Of a stretch of DNA of 64,000 bases, positions 32,432 through 49,564 are shown piece by piece. The first letter of the stretch is position 1, and every line of letters starts with the position of its first letter. The position numbers were made by a program, and so were the translations under genes. Source of the stretch: Dendrophyllia cribrosa. Its lineage: Eukaryota > Cnidaria > Anthozoa > Scleractinia > Dendrophylliidae. The notes under the pieces were generated by a model. It searched no databases. It was given only the letters and a program-made list of their open reading frames with translations, and was not told the DNA's origin. The stretch covers positions 32,384,434 through 32,448,433 of the forward strand of contig JAJLRJ010000006.1 in assembly GCA_024195265.1 (NCBI GenBank), given 5' to 3'.

Positions 32432-32504
32432 AGTAGTTAAGGACTTGGCGGTACCAGATCAGTTTTGCAAAACTGATCTGATACCATGCCAAGTCTTAAC
32501 TACT
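32432..32504. repeat. Left terminal 73-bp palindrome of the Polinton
   Basis: AGTAGTTAAG...CTTAACTACT with paired GACTTGGC/GCCAAGTC, GGTACCAGATCAG/CTGATCTGATACC and a TTTTGCAAAA centre. One arm has small asymmetries (GGTACC vs GATACCAT). It could fold into a terminal hairpin on single-stranded DNA. Confidence 0.9.
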
Positions 32505-32605
32505 TCCCATCTGTTGGATTAAAAAATATAGAAAAATCAAATAATACTATATGTTAATAAAAACAAAGTGCGTTTATTCCATTGCGTGATTTCCTTTGCG
32601 TGACA

Positions 32606-33340: not shown

Positions 33341-33916
33341 ATGAATTGTGATAAGATAATTCACGATGAATTGAAAGCAATGGGTAATTTTATTTGTGAT
33401 TTTTGTGACGTAAAATTAGTAGAAGTTGATAGTAGTGTGAGAGTGGTCGAGTCATGTTGTAGTGAACAAGATATAAATAATATAGATGGCATGAGTGTTT
33501 GTATAAAATGTGGCTGCGTTTACGGATATAATTATGTTAATGAAAAATATATTGACTATTTTGAAAATCGATTTAAAATACGGCGAAAATCGGTATATCA
33601 TCGGAAATATCATATCCAAAACACAATAAATGACATCTGTAGCCAACACAAATTACAGATATCAAACAATAATATAACTAAAATCATGAAAATTTTTGAG
33701 GAGATTGATAAAATTTTGCCACAGATAAATGGAAACCGAAAACGTATGATAAATATTGATTACATTTTAAAACAATTATTTAAGATGTTAAAATTACCAA
33801 TTGAAAATGATATACCTTTATCTAAATCGAAAAGAACATTAACTTGCTATAAACAATATTGGGATAATATCCTATTGTTAATAGGTGATCAAATACAAAC
33901 AATTATTAATAAATGA
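33341..33916 (+). CDS. VLTF3-like late transcription factor candidate
   Basis: 191 residues. A zinc-ribbon-like region near residues 20-70 includes CDFC, CC and CIKCGCVYG. It is followed by Y-FENRFKIRRKSVYHRKYH, resembling the conserved YxRxxH block of poxvirus late transcription factor 3-like proteins, and a helical C-terminus. VLTF3 homologues are known in large DNA viruses and in some Polinton-like viruses, where they direct late-gene transcription. First gene after the left direct-repeat array, transcribed inward. Start ATG follows ATAGTATAGA. The family call is by motif only; another zinc-ribbon protein is possible. Confidence 0.55.
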   Translation: MNCDKIIHDELKAMGNFICDFCDVKLVEVDSSVRVVESCCSEQDINNIDGMSVCIKCGCVYGYNYVNEKYIDYFENRFKIRRKSVYHRKYHIQNTINDICSQHKLQISNNNITKIMKIFEEIDKILPQINGNRKRMINIDYILKQLFKMLKLPIENDIPLSKSKRTLTCYKQYWDNILLLIGDQIQTIINK

Positions 33917-41594: not shown

Positions 41595-42416
41595 ATGACT
41601 CAGCTTTTTGAAATCAAAGTAAATTTGTCTGACAATCAAAAGAAGAATCTTAGCAATGCTTTCAAAAAAAGGGAAACTATTGTTCTCAGACTATCAAATG
41701 AATATCTGAACGGAAATGATATTCTATATGTACCAGCAATGGTAAAGAAGAGATTGGAGAAGAATCGTATGATGAATAAGGGTATGGATATCAAACTTGT
41801 TAAAAGTAATATCAGAAAACAGGTTGGAGGTAGTCTACTAACTTCTATCTTAAGTATTGGAAAGACACTAGCACCAACTATAGGTAAAACCCTTGGGCTA
41901 TCAGCTCTTGCTGGATTGGCATCAGAAGGTGCTTCTCAGATTGTGAAATCAATATCTGGCAAAGGCGTACAGTCGGGTGGTTTTCTCGTACCACAAGACA
42001 AAATTAATAAGCTGATAGAATATAAGCATCTTTTATCTGCGAAACAAAAACAGGATATATTGAATGCCCTTCAATCAGGTTCAGGTGTTCATGTGAAACC
42101 AACAAAAACACAATCAGGTGGATTTTTAGGCACTCTGTTGGCAAGCATTGGTGTTCCACTCCTTCTAAATGCTTTGACTGGTAAAACTGGTAGTGGGGCT
42201 CCACGAATGGGAACTAGTAAGAAAAAGGGTATGGGAGCTCCAAGAATTGGTGTATATAGACCACCTCCATTTTATGGGAGTTGGCCCGATAATACGATAG
42301 GTATGGGGATTAAAAAAAAACAACCAAAGAAAAAGACAACCAAAAGGGGCGAAGGCTTGCTATTAGGGAAAAGCAGCCCTTTCAATGGTATTCCTCTTCT
42401 CGGAGCAATACTGTAA
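41595..42416 (+). CDS. pX/pVI-like virion protein with hydrophobic segments
   Basis: 273 residues. The N-terminal ~55 residues form a small domain (FEIKVNLSDNQKKNLSNAF). Two hydrophobic, Gly-flanked segments follow (about 78-110 and 173-195, each introduced by GG), with SGGFL repeats that resemble adenain cleavage contexts. A Lys/Pro-rich tail ends SSPFNGIPLLGAIL. Membrane-active or core precursor roles are inferred from adenovirus analogy. Its last ~100 nt overlap the protease frame in -1. Upstream motif TTATATAACATATATTATA is shared with the capsid gene. Confidence 0.7.
   Translation: MTQLFEIKVNLSDNQKKNLSNAFKKRETIVLRLSNEYLNGNDILYVPAMVKKRLEKNRMMNKGMDIKLVKSNIRKQVGGSLLTSILSIGKTLAPTIGKTLGLSALAGLASEGASQIVKSISGKGVQSGGFLVPQDKINKLIEYKHLLSAKQKQDILNALQSGSGVHVKPTKTQSGGFLGTLLASIGVPLLLNALTGKTGSGAPRMGTSKKKGMGAPRIGVYRPPPFYGSWPDNTIGMGIKKKQPKKKTTKRGEGLLLGKSSPFNGIPLLGAIL
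42314..42320 (+). promoter_or_regulatory. Candidate -1 slippery site A_AAA_AAA (pX to protease)
   Basis: A nine-A run (42312-42320) places A_AAA_AAA in the pX frame, just after the protease frame's upstream stop (TAA, 42311-42313). No strong structure lies at the usual distance; a mismatched hairpin at 42352-42381 is ~31 nt downstream. A second candidate, C_CCT_TTC, is at 42377-42383, followed 3 nt later by a bulged hairpin (42387-42412). Confidence 0.4.
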
Positions 42417-42874
42417 AACCGAAATTCCACAAAGACATCCCGTTAAGTAATCATGATCTAATAAAATGGTGCAGATATTTAAACATCCCAATCAGTGATG
42501 TTCTGTCAAGGGATGAAAGAGTTCCACATAATCATAGCCAAGCATTATTTATTTACAATCTGGAACCTAGTTATATGGCAGGATCTCATTGGGTTACAAC
42601 TTATGTAAAAGACAACGTGATAAATTATTTTGACAGTTTTGGTATGCCTCCATTTCAAGAGATCGTAAATCATGCGAAAAGAAGGAATATGACACTGCTT
42701 CACCAAAACAACCAAATCCAAAACATAAAAACGTCTACATGTGGCTACTTCTGTTTATACTTTCTGAACGAAATGAATAAGGGGAATTTGTATTATAATT
42801 TATTGCAAGTATTTGACATATATGATACAATGAAGAATGAGAGATTCCTCGAACATTATTTTAGAAATATCTAA
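42384..42874 (+). CDS. Adenain/ULP1-like cysteine protease, no AUG for conserved N-terminus
   Basis: The first in-frame ATG is 42575, but clear protease homology begins upstream (LSNHDLIKWCRYLNIPI and VLSRDE) in the same frame. That frame is open back to 42314 with no ATG. Counting from 42575, the catalytic set is His5 (GSHWV), Asp20 (NYFDSFG) and Cys56 (TCGYFCLYFL), with Gln49 as a likely oxyanion residue. This is the adenovirus/Polinton maturation protease that trims capsid and core precursors. The frame is -1 relative to pX, so expression as a pX-protease fusion by ribosomal frameshift is inferred. The start given is approximate. It ends 12 bp before the zinc-ribbon gene. Confidence 0.8.
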
Positions 42875-42886
42875 CTTATATATATA

Positions 42887-43048
42887 ATGGTAATATCATA
42901 TTGTGTTAAACAGAAGAAAGACACTGAATGTGTTCCAGGAAGCGAACGATATGTGAAAACTAAAAATGGTCGAACTATGTTGAAATGCACTTGCGCTGAA
43001 TGTGGTATAACAAAAACCAAATTTATAAAACAAAAACAGGGAAACTAA
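42887..43048 (+). CDS. Small zinc-ribbon protein, 53 residues
   Basis: Starts at ATG 42887, right after TATATATA. Two Cys pairs are visible: YCVKQ...EC near the N-terminus and CTCAEC at ~34-39, with KTKNGRTMLK between and KTKFIKQK at the end. The pattern resembles small DUF5679-like ribbons found in Polintons, phages and giant viruses. Probably nucleic-acid binding or a virion component. Its last 49 nt overlap the PLA2 gene. Too short for routine ORF cut-offs but well supported by position and motif. Confidence 0.75.
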   Translation: MVISYCVKQKKDTECVPGSERYVKTKNGRTMLKCTCAECGITKTKFIKQKQGN

Positions 43049-43674
43049 TTGAGCCCTCACAAGATGGGGGCTTTTTAAATATAGAAGGTAGTCACAGTCT
43101 TGGTGAAATAGCAGCTAAAAGCGCTTTAAAAGGTTTGTATAATTTAGGTAGAATCGGAGCATCAAAGGCAATTAAATCTGGTTATGCTAAACAAAAAATA
43201 AAAGGAATGGCTGATAAATATTTGGATCAAGCCTTAGATAGTTTAACTTCAGATATTAGTAAGAAACTAGATCCATTGCATAAAGGTAGTGGGATTGATA
43301 TTCATAAGGCCATTGGGAAGCTTCCGAAACCAAAAGGCGGTTGGACATTACCCGGCCATAAATATACTGGCCCATATAATGATTTAAAGAGTCAAGTGAA
43401 ATATGACCCAACAACTGGCCAAATATTAGAAATATATGACCAACCTACAGGAAGAACTGATGAAATAGCAATGCAACATGATGTCGATTATTCAGTCTGC
43501 AAGGATGATAGGAAATGTAAAAATAAGGCAGACCGAAAAATGGTTCAAGCTTTAGACAACGTACCGTATAATGAAAGACAATGGGGGCATTGGTTGGCTA
43601 GAAACACGATTGATGTAAAACAAAAACTTGGATTAGGTGTTAAAAGGAAGTCAAAAAACGTAAAAAGGAGTTGA
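43000..43674 (+). CDS. Virion phospholipase A2-like protein
   Basis: 224 residues. A helical basic N-terminal part precedes a PLA2-like domain: YTGPYNDL (~121-128) as the calcium-loop equivalent, and MQHDVDY (~157-163) with the catalytic His-Asp pair, followed by CKDDRKCKNKADRKM. Parvovirus VP1 and adintovirus PLA2 domains use this fold to breach endosomal membranes (family knowledge). ATG 43000 lies inside the zinc-ribbon gene, immediately after a TGA in this frame. The final codons contain a canonical -1 slippery site leading into the integrase frame, so two products are likely: PLA2 alone and PLA2-integrase. Confidence 0.8.
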   Translation: MWYNKNQIYKTKTGKLIEPSQDGGFLNIEGSHSLGEIAAKSALKGLYNLGRIGASKAIKSGYAKQKIKGMADKYLDQALDSLTSDISKKLDPLHKGSGIDIHKAIGKLPKPKGGWTLPGHKYTGPYNDLKSQVKYDPTTGQILEIYDQPTGRTDEIAMQHDVDYSVCKDDRKCKNKADRKMVQALDNVPYNERQWGHWLARNTIDVKQKLGLGVKRKSKNVKRS

Positions 43675-43722
43675 GTAATGATTGGGCTGAACTCCTTGCA
43701 AATGAACTACATAAACCAATCA
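43653..43722 (+). promoter_or_regulatory. Predicted -1 programmed frameshift signal, PLA2 to integrase
   Basis: Heptamer A_AAA_AAC at 43653-43659 is in the correct phase of the PLA2 frame. After a 5-nt spacer, 43665-43672 (AAGGAGTT) pairs perfectly with 43690-43697 (AACTCCTT). Loop bases 43679-43685 (TGATTGG) pair perfectly with 43716-43722 (CCAATCA), forming an H-type pseudoknot with loops of 6, 4 and 18 nt. The PLA2 stop (TGA, 43672-43674) lies in the first stem. The geometry matches retroviral and coronaviral -1 signals. Confidence 0.8.
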
Positions 43723-44615
43723 AACGGAAATTTCAAAAGAGACGTGTTATTGTTAATGGAATAGATGATATTTGGAGCGCTGACCTTGTAGAAATGCAGA
43801 AGTTTTCAAAATGGAATAAAGGATATAGATATTTGTTAAACATCATTGATGTGTTTTCGAAATTTGCTTGGAGCATCCCTATTAAAAATAAAACAGGTAA
43901 TACAATTACTGAATCATTTGATGATGTTATTAAAAAATCCAAACGGAAACCTAAATTTATTTGGGTAGACCAAGGGTCTGAATTCTATAATAAAACTTTC
44001 AAAGACTGGCTAAAGAAAAATAATATTGAGATGTATTCTACTTTCAATGAAGGTAAAGCTGTTATTATTGAGAGATTTAACAGAACATTAAAATCTAAAA
44101 TGTGGAAACAATTTACAGCTCAAAATACAACACAATATTTAGACATGTTACCAAAACTATTAAATGAATACAACAGTACAAAGCATGCAAGTATTAAAAT
44201 GAAACCTACTGAAGCATCTATGAAAAAGAATGAAGGAACTGTTTATTTCAATCTATATGATACGGAACTATTATCATATAAACCAAAATTTAAAGTTGGT
44301 GATAAGGTTAGAATTTCAAAGTATAAACGGAATGTGTTCGACAAGGGTTATACACCAAACTGGACTGAAGAAGTGTTTACAGTCGATAAGATACAATACA
44401 CTAATCCTATAACTTACAAATTAAAAGATCTCAATGATGAATCAATAGAAGGATCTTTCTATCAACAGGAGTTATTGAAAGCTAAACAAGATGTTTTTCG
44501 TATAGATAAGGTTATCAAAAGAGACTATAAGAAAAAACAAGCTTTGGTGAAGTGGAAAGGATATAGTGATGATTTTAACAGCTGGATACCGCTAAAAGAT
44601 GTAAAAAATATATAA
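43660..44615 (+). CDS. RVE integrase with C-terminal chromodomain, entered by -1 frameshift
   Basis: The frame shows LLANELHKPIKRKF, then the DDE core: Asp in IWSADLVEM, Asp in FIWVDQGSEFYN and Glu in VIIERFNRTLK, in standard spacing. The C-terminal 45 residues form a chromodomain (ALVKWKGYSDDFNSWIP). It inserts element DNA into the host genome. There is no ATG before the first catalytic Asp: the first is codon 42 counted from the TTG at 43671. Conserved sequence precedes it, so AUG initiation cannot give an active enzyme. The zero-frame overlap and slippery site indicate synthesis as a PLA2-integrase fusion. TTG initiation at 43671 is a less likely alternative. No HHCC zinc domain is seen. 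Confidence 0.85.
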
Positions 44616-49304: not shown

Positions 49305-49491
49305 ATCAAAAAATAACTTTCCTTAATTCAATCCTGTGTAGACTTCCTGTGTTTCCGAGAATTGTGTCACGCAAAGGATTCTATTATGTGGAATCACGCA
49401 ATGAAATAAACGCACCATTTGTTTTTATTAACATATAGTTTCATTTGATTTTTCTATCTGATTGTGTTATATGATTGTTCCATCAGCTGGC
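49305..49491. repeat. Right subterminal repeat
   Basis: Contains the inverted counterpart of the left TIR interior (TTTGTTTTTATTAACATATAGT and AATCACGCAATGAAATAAACGCA in part). The reverse complement matches 32505-~32605 with small indels. There is no CCCACGCGTGGG array at this end. Non-coding. Confidence 0.75.
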
Positions 49492-49564
49492 AGTAGTATA
49501 GACTTGGCTTGGTATCAGATCAGTTTTGCAAAACTGATCTGGTACCGCCAAGTCCTATACTACT
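49492..49564. repeat. Right terminal 73-bp palindrome of the Polinton
   Basis: AGTAGTATAG...CTATACTACT with the same GACTTGGC, GATCAG and TTTTGCAAAA core as the left end, differing at a few positions. The asymmetric bases are in the orientation expected for an inverted repeat, i.e. the two hairpins are in the same configuration. Confidence 0.9.

Follow-up and report, generated by a model that had tools for sequence, protein, structure and literature searches.

Two candidate −1 frameshift sites in tandem link zinc-ribbon, PLA2 and integrase reading frames of a Polinton-like element in Dendrophyllia cribrosa

A Polinton-like element of the scleractinian Dendrophyllia cribrosa carries three overlapping reading frames for a zinc-ribbon-like protein, a PLA2-domain protein and an integrase, each in the −1 frame relative to the one before it. 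Judging from sequence, we consider it probable (about 0.83) that both junctions recode, so that a retrovirus-like double −1 frameshift makes a zinc-ribbon-PLA2-integrase polyprotein. The downstream junction (PLA2 to integrase, J2) had been proposed as a frameshift site in a first-pass annotation of the same DNA; the upstream junction (zinc ribbon to PLA2, J1), which is as good a −1 site as J2, was missing from it. With the tandem −1 arrangement of three ORFs, such elements would have a novel route to their integrase. If true, this would be a striking parallel in expression strategy between a Polinton-like DNA element and retroviruses, which have the heptamers and the class of integrase in common. 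It offers a testable answer to how the element limits integrase, and perhaps to how the integrase reaches the nucleus of a new host.

Element and reading frames

The window, i.e., the whole 64-kb stretch of DNA analysed, contains a Polinton-like element of ~17.1 kb between terminal inverted repeats. The left repeat (32432–32507, + strand) is 76 nt long and 92% complementary to the right repeat (49489–49564, − strand), with which it pairs. Besides these repeats, the element encodes an rve integrase and an A32-type ATPase (PF04665, by Pfam), the combination by which Polintons/Mavericks are recognised. A target-site duplication is also a feature of Polintons/Mavericks; no exact 6-nt target-site repeat flanks the repeat ends at the positions tried, and the flanks may have changed. 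As for the protein-primed PolB, adenain protease and double-jelly-roll capsid protein that also characterise Polintons/Mavericks, a 1253-aa polymerase-like ORF has no Pfam polymerase match and no PDB sequence match, and sequence searches against solved structures returned nothing convincing for either the polymerase-like or the protease ORF. The adenain-like protease ORF scores below the cut-off against Pfam Peptidase_C5 (E 0.014), and an AlphaFold model of the putative major capsid protein, predicted from a single sequence, is unusable (pLDDT 31.8).

ORF a (42887–43048, + strand) has 53 codons and encodes a zinc-ribbon-like protein that matches DUF5679 (PF18930) above the cut-off, at E 1.1e-6. 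The ORF has its own TATATATA-ATG start, and its last codons are CAG GGA AAC TAA, i.e., G_GGA_AAC_TAA. The AUG at 42887 has A at −3 and G at +4, which we take to be a strong context by the Kozak rule. ORF b (43000–43674, + strand) is −1 to ORF a and encodes the PLA2-domain protein (PF08398, parvovirus-type PLA2, E 2.7e-9); its AUG at 43000 is present in the window copy and missing in some relatives. ORF c (43644–44615, + strand), with an rve domain (PF00665) followed by a chromodomain (PF00385), is −1 to ORF b and open throughout. Met is first encountered in the integrase frame at residue 51, past the first of the catalytic Asp residues (D47), which bears out the earlier description of a −1 frame that is open across J2 and has no AUG before that Asp. 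The catalytic residues D47, D109 and E143 are invariant in an alignment of 15 sequences, and a sequence search of solved structures with ORF c gave retroviral integrases. With a pLDDT of 56.8, the integrase model built from the 15 sequences is of middling quality; it places the first strand of the core near residue 43, and N-terminal to the core there is no Pfam domain and no confident domain in the predicted structure.

PLA2–integrase junction

The slippery heptamer of J2, A_AAA_AAC, has the canonical form X_XXY_YYZ, is located at 43653–43659 (+ strand) and is in phase with the PLA2 codons TCA|AAA|AAC. After a 5-nt spacer (43660–43664), the 5' arm of stem 1 (43665–43672, AAGGAGTT) pairs over 8 bp with the 3' arm (43690–43697, AACTCCTT). 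A possible pseudoknot stem 2 is provided by TGATTGG at 43679–43685, which is the exact complement of CCAATCA at 43716–43722 (7 bp; all on the + strand). Direct reading of the sequence thus agrees with the first-pass annotation on the heptamer and its phase, the spacer and both complementary segments. For the 41 nt past the heptamer, the predicted fold has an energy of −14.0 kcal/mol (z −4.86), and none of 200 shuffles is as good; over 66 nt, z is −2.93, with 2 of 200 shuffles as good. Such a combination is rare: counted over the two strands of the window, nine of 904 canonical heptamers are followed by a fold of −13.0 kcal/mol or lower in the next 41 nt. Inside the element, the same search over both strands gives 209 canonical heptamers, and the two that pass are J1 and J2 only, against a background of ~0.5% of 2442 segments of 41 nt, sampled from the element, with folds of −13.0 kcal/mol or lower.

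Relatives of the junction were collected from the same genome assembly (627 Mb, 22 contigs), where loose first-pass searches gave 2897 and 3007 integrase candidates in two scans. One hundred loci were fetched, 50 from 124 loci scored with the integrase of the window and 50 from 127 scored with a divergent relative; the two source lists overlap. The 124 were the integrase matches scored among the 2897 candidates of the first scan, and a separate integrase frame of 321–326 aa is found in 122 of them; in the second scan all 127 have a separate frame (278–353 aa). The first 50 fetched loci are 85–100% identical to the window over ~1.8 kb. Many fetched copies are >99% identical to it over 1.8 kb, which suggests a recent burst. 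Two scans of the IMG/VR viral contigs with the integrase gave no relatives.

The J2 heptamer is kept in all 100 fetched loci, and the integrase is −1 to it in 98. The two exceptions (L031 and L032) have insertions downstream, outside the heptamer. Among the 98, the codon before AAA AAC is TCA in 75, CCA in 17, and ACA, TAA and CAA in two each; at the two TAA loci the PLA2 frame stops at that codon. The two bases after the heptamer vary among loci. The 98 loci reduce to 36 distinct downstream sequences of 110 nt in 16 clusters, and one representative per cluster was folded. A stem starts 5–7 nt after the heptamer, inside the ~5–9 nt usual for canonical −1 sites, in 14 of the 16, whose clusters comprise 93 of the 98 loci, and is missing from the minimum-energy fold in the other two. 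Over the 110 nt, z ranges from −0.7 to −4.2, so that the whole fold is not unusual in several clusters. The stems differ by subfamily, with at least three designs: the 8-bp stem of the window, CGGC+GTTGAG paired with CTCAAC+GCCG, and a 12–14-bp stem with its 3' arm ~50 nt on. In the long stem, 98.6% of the cells are paired in 21 sequences, compared with 27–52% when slid, and one pair appears as U-G, C-G or U-A. No pair is changed on both sides in these 21 sequences, and the covariation score is reached by 32 of 500 shuffles and the percentage paired by 41 of 500.

The −1 frameshift that would fuse PLA2 to the integrase is in our opinion well supported by the conserved heptamer, the frame relation and the similar placement of divergent stems. 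In the comparison of related junctions suggested along with the original proposal, the heptamer is conserved and the long stem is without double-sided pair changes. As for the H-type pseudoknot that had been described, the complementarity is exact, but stem 2 draws no support from variation, being nearly invariant in 14 distinct window-like sequences, and it is not the structure folded in other relatives.

Zinc ribbon–PLA2 junction

The heptamer of J1, G_GGA_AAC (43039–43045, + strand), lies flush against the stop codon of ORF a. It is followed by a 5-nt spacer (43046–43050) and a 9-bp hairpin with its 5' arm at 43051–43059 and its 3' arm at 43065–43073 (both + strand). Folded over 40 nt, the hairpin has an energy of −13.5 kcal/mol and a z of −3.24, which none of 200 shuffles equals; with 65 nt, z is −1.70 and 13 of 200 shuffles are as good.

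Eighty loci are long enough for a survey of J1, and the zinc-ribbon ORF is recognised in 77. A canonical heptamer stands flush before the ORF a stop in 68 of the 77, as GGGAAAC (51 loci), TTTAAAA (11), TTTAAAC (5) or AAATTTA (1). The 51 GGGAAAC loci are not independent, because they are mostly near-identical copies of the window type, and the AAATTTA locus is L032, a copy with a disturbed frame, without which the count is 67 of 77. The nine non-canonical loci consist of four with ATTAAAC (L042, L049, L063 and L074), four in which the zinc ribbon is in frame with PLA2 (L026, L054, L072 and L076), and one that is different (L073). Few explanations besides slipping would account for the exchange of one canonical heptamer for another at a fixed place directly before the stop codon.

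For folding, 18 of the 19 distinct J1 sequences were used, L032 being excluded. All 18 have a hairpin of 7–10 bp that starts 4–6 nt past the heptamer, with energies between −9.7 and −17.3 kcal/mol. Eleven sequences share one register, in which 100% of the cells are paired, compared with 11–57% when slid, and none of 500 shuffles reaches their covariation score. Two pairs are changed on both sides, but one set of two sequences accounts for both, and 50 of 500 shuffles yield as many.

Protein relatives

Two proteins, P0038 (488 aa) and P0046 (550 aa), have, from N- to C-terminus, DUF5679, PLA2, rve and chromodomain in a single unbroken ORF, which is the very product expected from two shifts in the window element. 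More generally, precomputed Pfam domains place PLA2 and integrase in one protein in 34 of the 120 integrase relatives listed (of 7666 above threshold), P0038 and P0046 included. The 34 also include P0099 from Oculina patagonica, a gene model that joins PLA2 to integrase and skips the linker. The in-frame fusions imply that a −1 shift is not needed everywhere, and to that extent they count against the original proposal. The integrase of the Trichoplax MELD virus (P0108) has DUF5679 at its N-terminus and no PLA2; this DUF5679 is 37% identical to ORF a of the window over 51 aa, and the N-terminus used as a region query matched only itself.

Among the 120 PLA2 relatives listed (1795 above threshold), 39 end with a KN(V/G)KS-like tail, which corresponds to the zero-frame reading expected past the J2 heptamer. 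A second group of PLA2 proteins (P0129–P0240) has a Lys-rich run at the end followed by differing tails, as expected of an A run read in different frames.

Translation starts

ATATA or TATAT is located within 15 nt upstream of the start in 8 of 10 + strand genes with their own AUG, compared with 35 of the 429 ATGs that the element has on this strand. The motif was not found in the 15 nt upstream of the first ATG of PLA2, adenain or integrase. A VLTF3-like late transcription factor (PF04947, E 3.4e-8) is encoded at 33341–33916 of the window, in the same element as the TATATA-ATG motifs.

A PLA2 AUG upstream of J1 is present in 44 of the 68 loci with a canonical J1, the window included, and there is none in the other 24. 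In the integrase frame, an AUG precedes the catalytic Asp or the fragment end in 22 of the 98 J2 loci and is lacking in 76, the window included, where 20 short pieces were judged to the fragment end and not to the Asp. An AUG that could start the integrase in relatives, a start which the first-pass annotation had named as speaking against its proposal, is found in some loci and absent from the majority.

Discussion

Three other explanations of the frame relations have to be weighed. The integrase could be started independently, at an internal AUG, a near-cognate codon or from a short transcript of its own, with the heptamer as a by-product of a Lys-rich linker. The integrase-frame AUG in 22 of the 98 loci, often overlapping the PLA2 codons for QWGH, fits such a start, as do the many listed proteins that begin just before the integrase core, although the latter may be prokaryote-style calls where non-AUG codons are shown as M. 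The remaining 76 loci, including the window, have no such AUG, on which ground we reject an internal AUG as the general mechanism. Own-AUG genes have ATATA/TATAT near the start in 8 of 10 cases, whereas the first ATGs of PLA2 and integrase do not. An independent start also leaves the stems unexplained, and equally J1 with its three different heptamers, and we regard it as improbable.

A joining of the frames on the mRNA instead of on the ribosome, through splicing or through slippage of the polymerase along the A run, appears a shade less probable again. In the Oculina gene model P0099, the linker between PLA2 and integrase is left out as if it were a predicted intron, but intact vertebrate Mavericks are described with intronless ORFs in the part of PMC8097293 consulted. 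The J1 heptamers GGGAAAC and TTTAAAC are not long runs, for which reason we reject transcriptional slippage, and hairpins 4–7 nt downstream suit a ribosome better than a polymerase. It is highly improbable that decay or homopolymer errors have broken up the frame of one true PLA2-integrase ORF, even if 34 of the 120 listed relatives have both domains in one frame and the Lys-rich ends and differing tails of the second PLA2 group fit a long A run read in different frames. The heptamer is present in 100 of 100 loci of the same genome and the −1 relation in 98 of 100, many of them near-identical copies; the insertions in L031 and L032 lie outside the heptamer; and J1 shows the same direction of shift and is not a homopolymer. 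With 100 loci in agreement, sequencing error or decay is contradicted for this genome.

According to the tandem frameshift reading, which we prefer, translation would start at 42887, the AUG of the zinc ribbon. The majority of ribosomes would terminate at 43046, and a fraction would shift −1 at 43039 to continue into PLA2; some of the latter would shift −1 again at 43653 and read the integrase. Three nested products in falling amounts can be expected: the zinc ribbon would be abundant, zinc-ribbon-PLA2 less so, and the full fusion scarce. What purpose this serves is a weaker part of the proposal: it may keep integrase low and put a zinc domain in front of it, and the zinc ribbon may act as the N-terminal zinc domain that is missing from the integrase ORF. 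The weakest point is that PLA2 possibly carries the integrase into the particle. Packaging of the integrase, which had been suggested earlier as the reason for the fusion, has in our view a chance of well under one half of being its purpose. Automatic gene calls split or mis-start these overlapping genes.

The IS3 family offers a bacterial analogy, where a −1 frameshift between OrfA and OrfB makes a DDE enzyme fused to an upstream ORF. It differs from the present case in being bacterial, in having one site, and in its unrelated upstream part. The fusion proteins P0038 and P0046, the other PLA2-integrase fusions and P0108 have the domain order of the window chain, with no frameshift needed. A close parallel in expression is found in beta- and deltaretroviruses (MPMV, SRV, MMTV, HTLV), for which the consulted part of PMC3835772 describes double gag-pro and pro-pol −1 shifts with the heptamers GGGAAAC and AAAAAAC. 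The window element has in common with this retroviral Gag-Pro-Pol system, to the extent that it is covered there, two successive −1 sites, three overlapping ORFs, a DDE integrase encoded last, and the same heptamers. Unlike Gag-Pro-Pol, it is a DNA element whose chain lacks Gag, protease and RT and has a zinc ribbon and PLA2 as its first ORFs, and its hairpins are predicted whereas the retroviral pseudoknots are proven. As proposed here, it works like Gag-Pro-Pol and is not a member of that system.

Hypothetical −1 sites obtained with KnotInFrame are reported for the Penton and Hexon-Adenain genes of adintoviruses in the part consulted of a preprint (PMC11071296). That proposal concerns a related virus group but other genes, and the same part contains neither a PLA2/integrase site nor a conservation analysis. 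Among the open-access papers listed by our searches, none announces a frameshift to the integrase of a Polinton in its title or at the start of its abstract, and Polintons and Mavericks are unnamed in ~300,000 of the 475,107 characters of a recoding review (PMC5009743).

A third −1 site is possible at the adenain-like protease frame (42314–42874, + strand), where the evidence is weak. This frame is −1 to the upstream ORF (41595–42416), which is presumably pX/pVI-like, and overlaps it by ~100 nt, with no early AUG (none before residue 88). In the overlap (J0), in-phase heptamers are found in some copies and not in others, and folds range from 0 to −9.1 kcal/mol. A Gag-Pro-Pol-like cascade, in which two −1 shifts, or perhaps three with adenain, yield a polyprotein that loads the integrase into the capsid and is matured by adenain, is a tentative extension that we think somewhat more likely to be wrong than right. 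If true, it would mean that, like retroviruses, a DNA virus brings its integrase along inside the particle. Q(S/D)GGFL motifs recur in the pX-like ORF and near the N-terminus of PLA2 (~43054–43080). Going by the adenain consensus, we assume these to be possible maturation-protease sites, one of which would split the zinc ribbon from PLA2.
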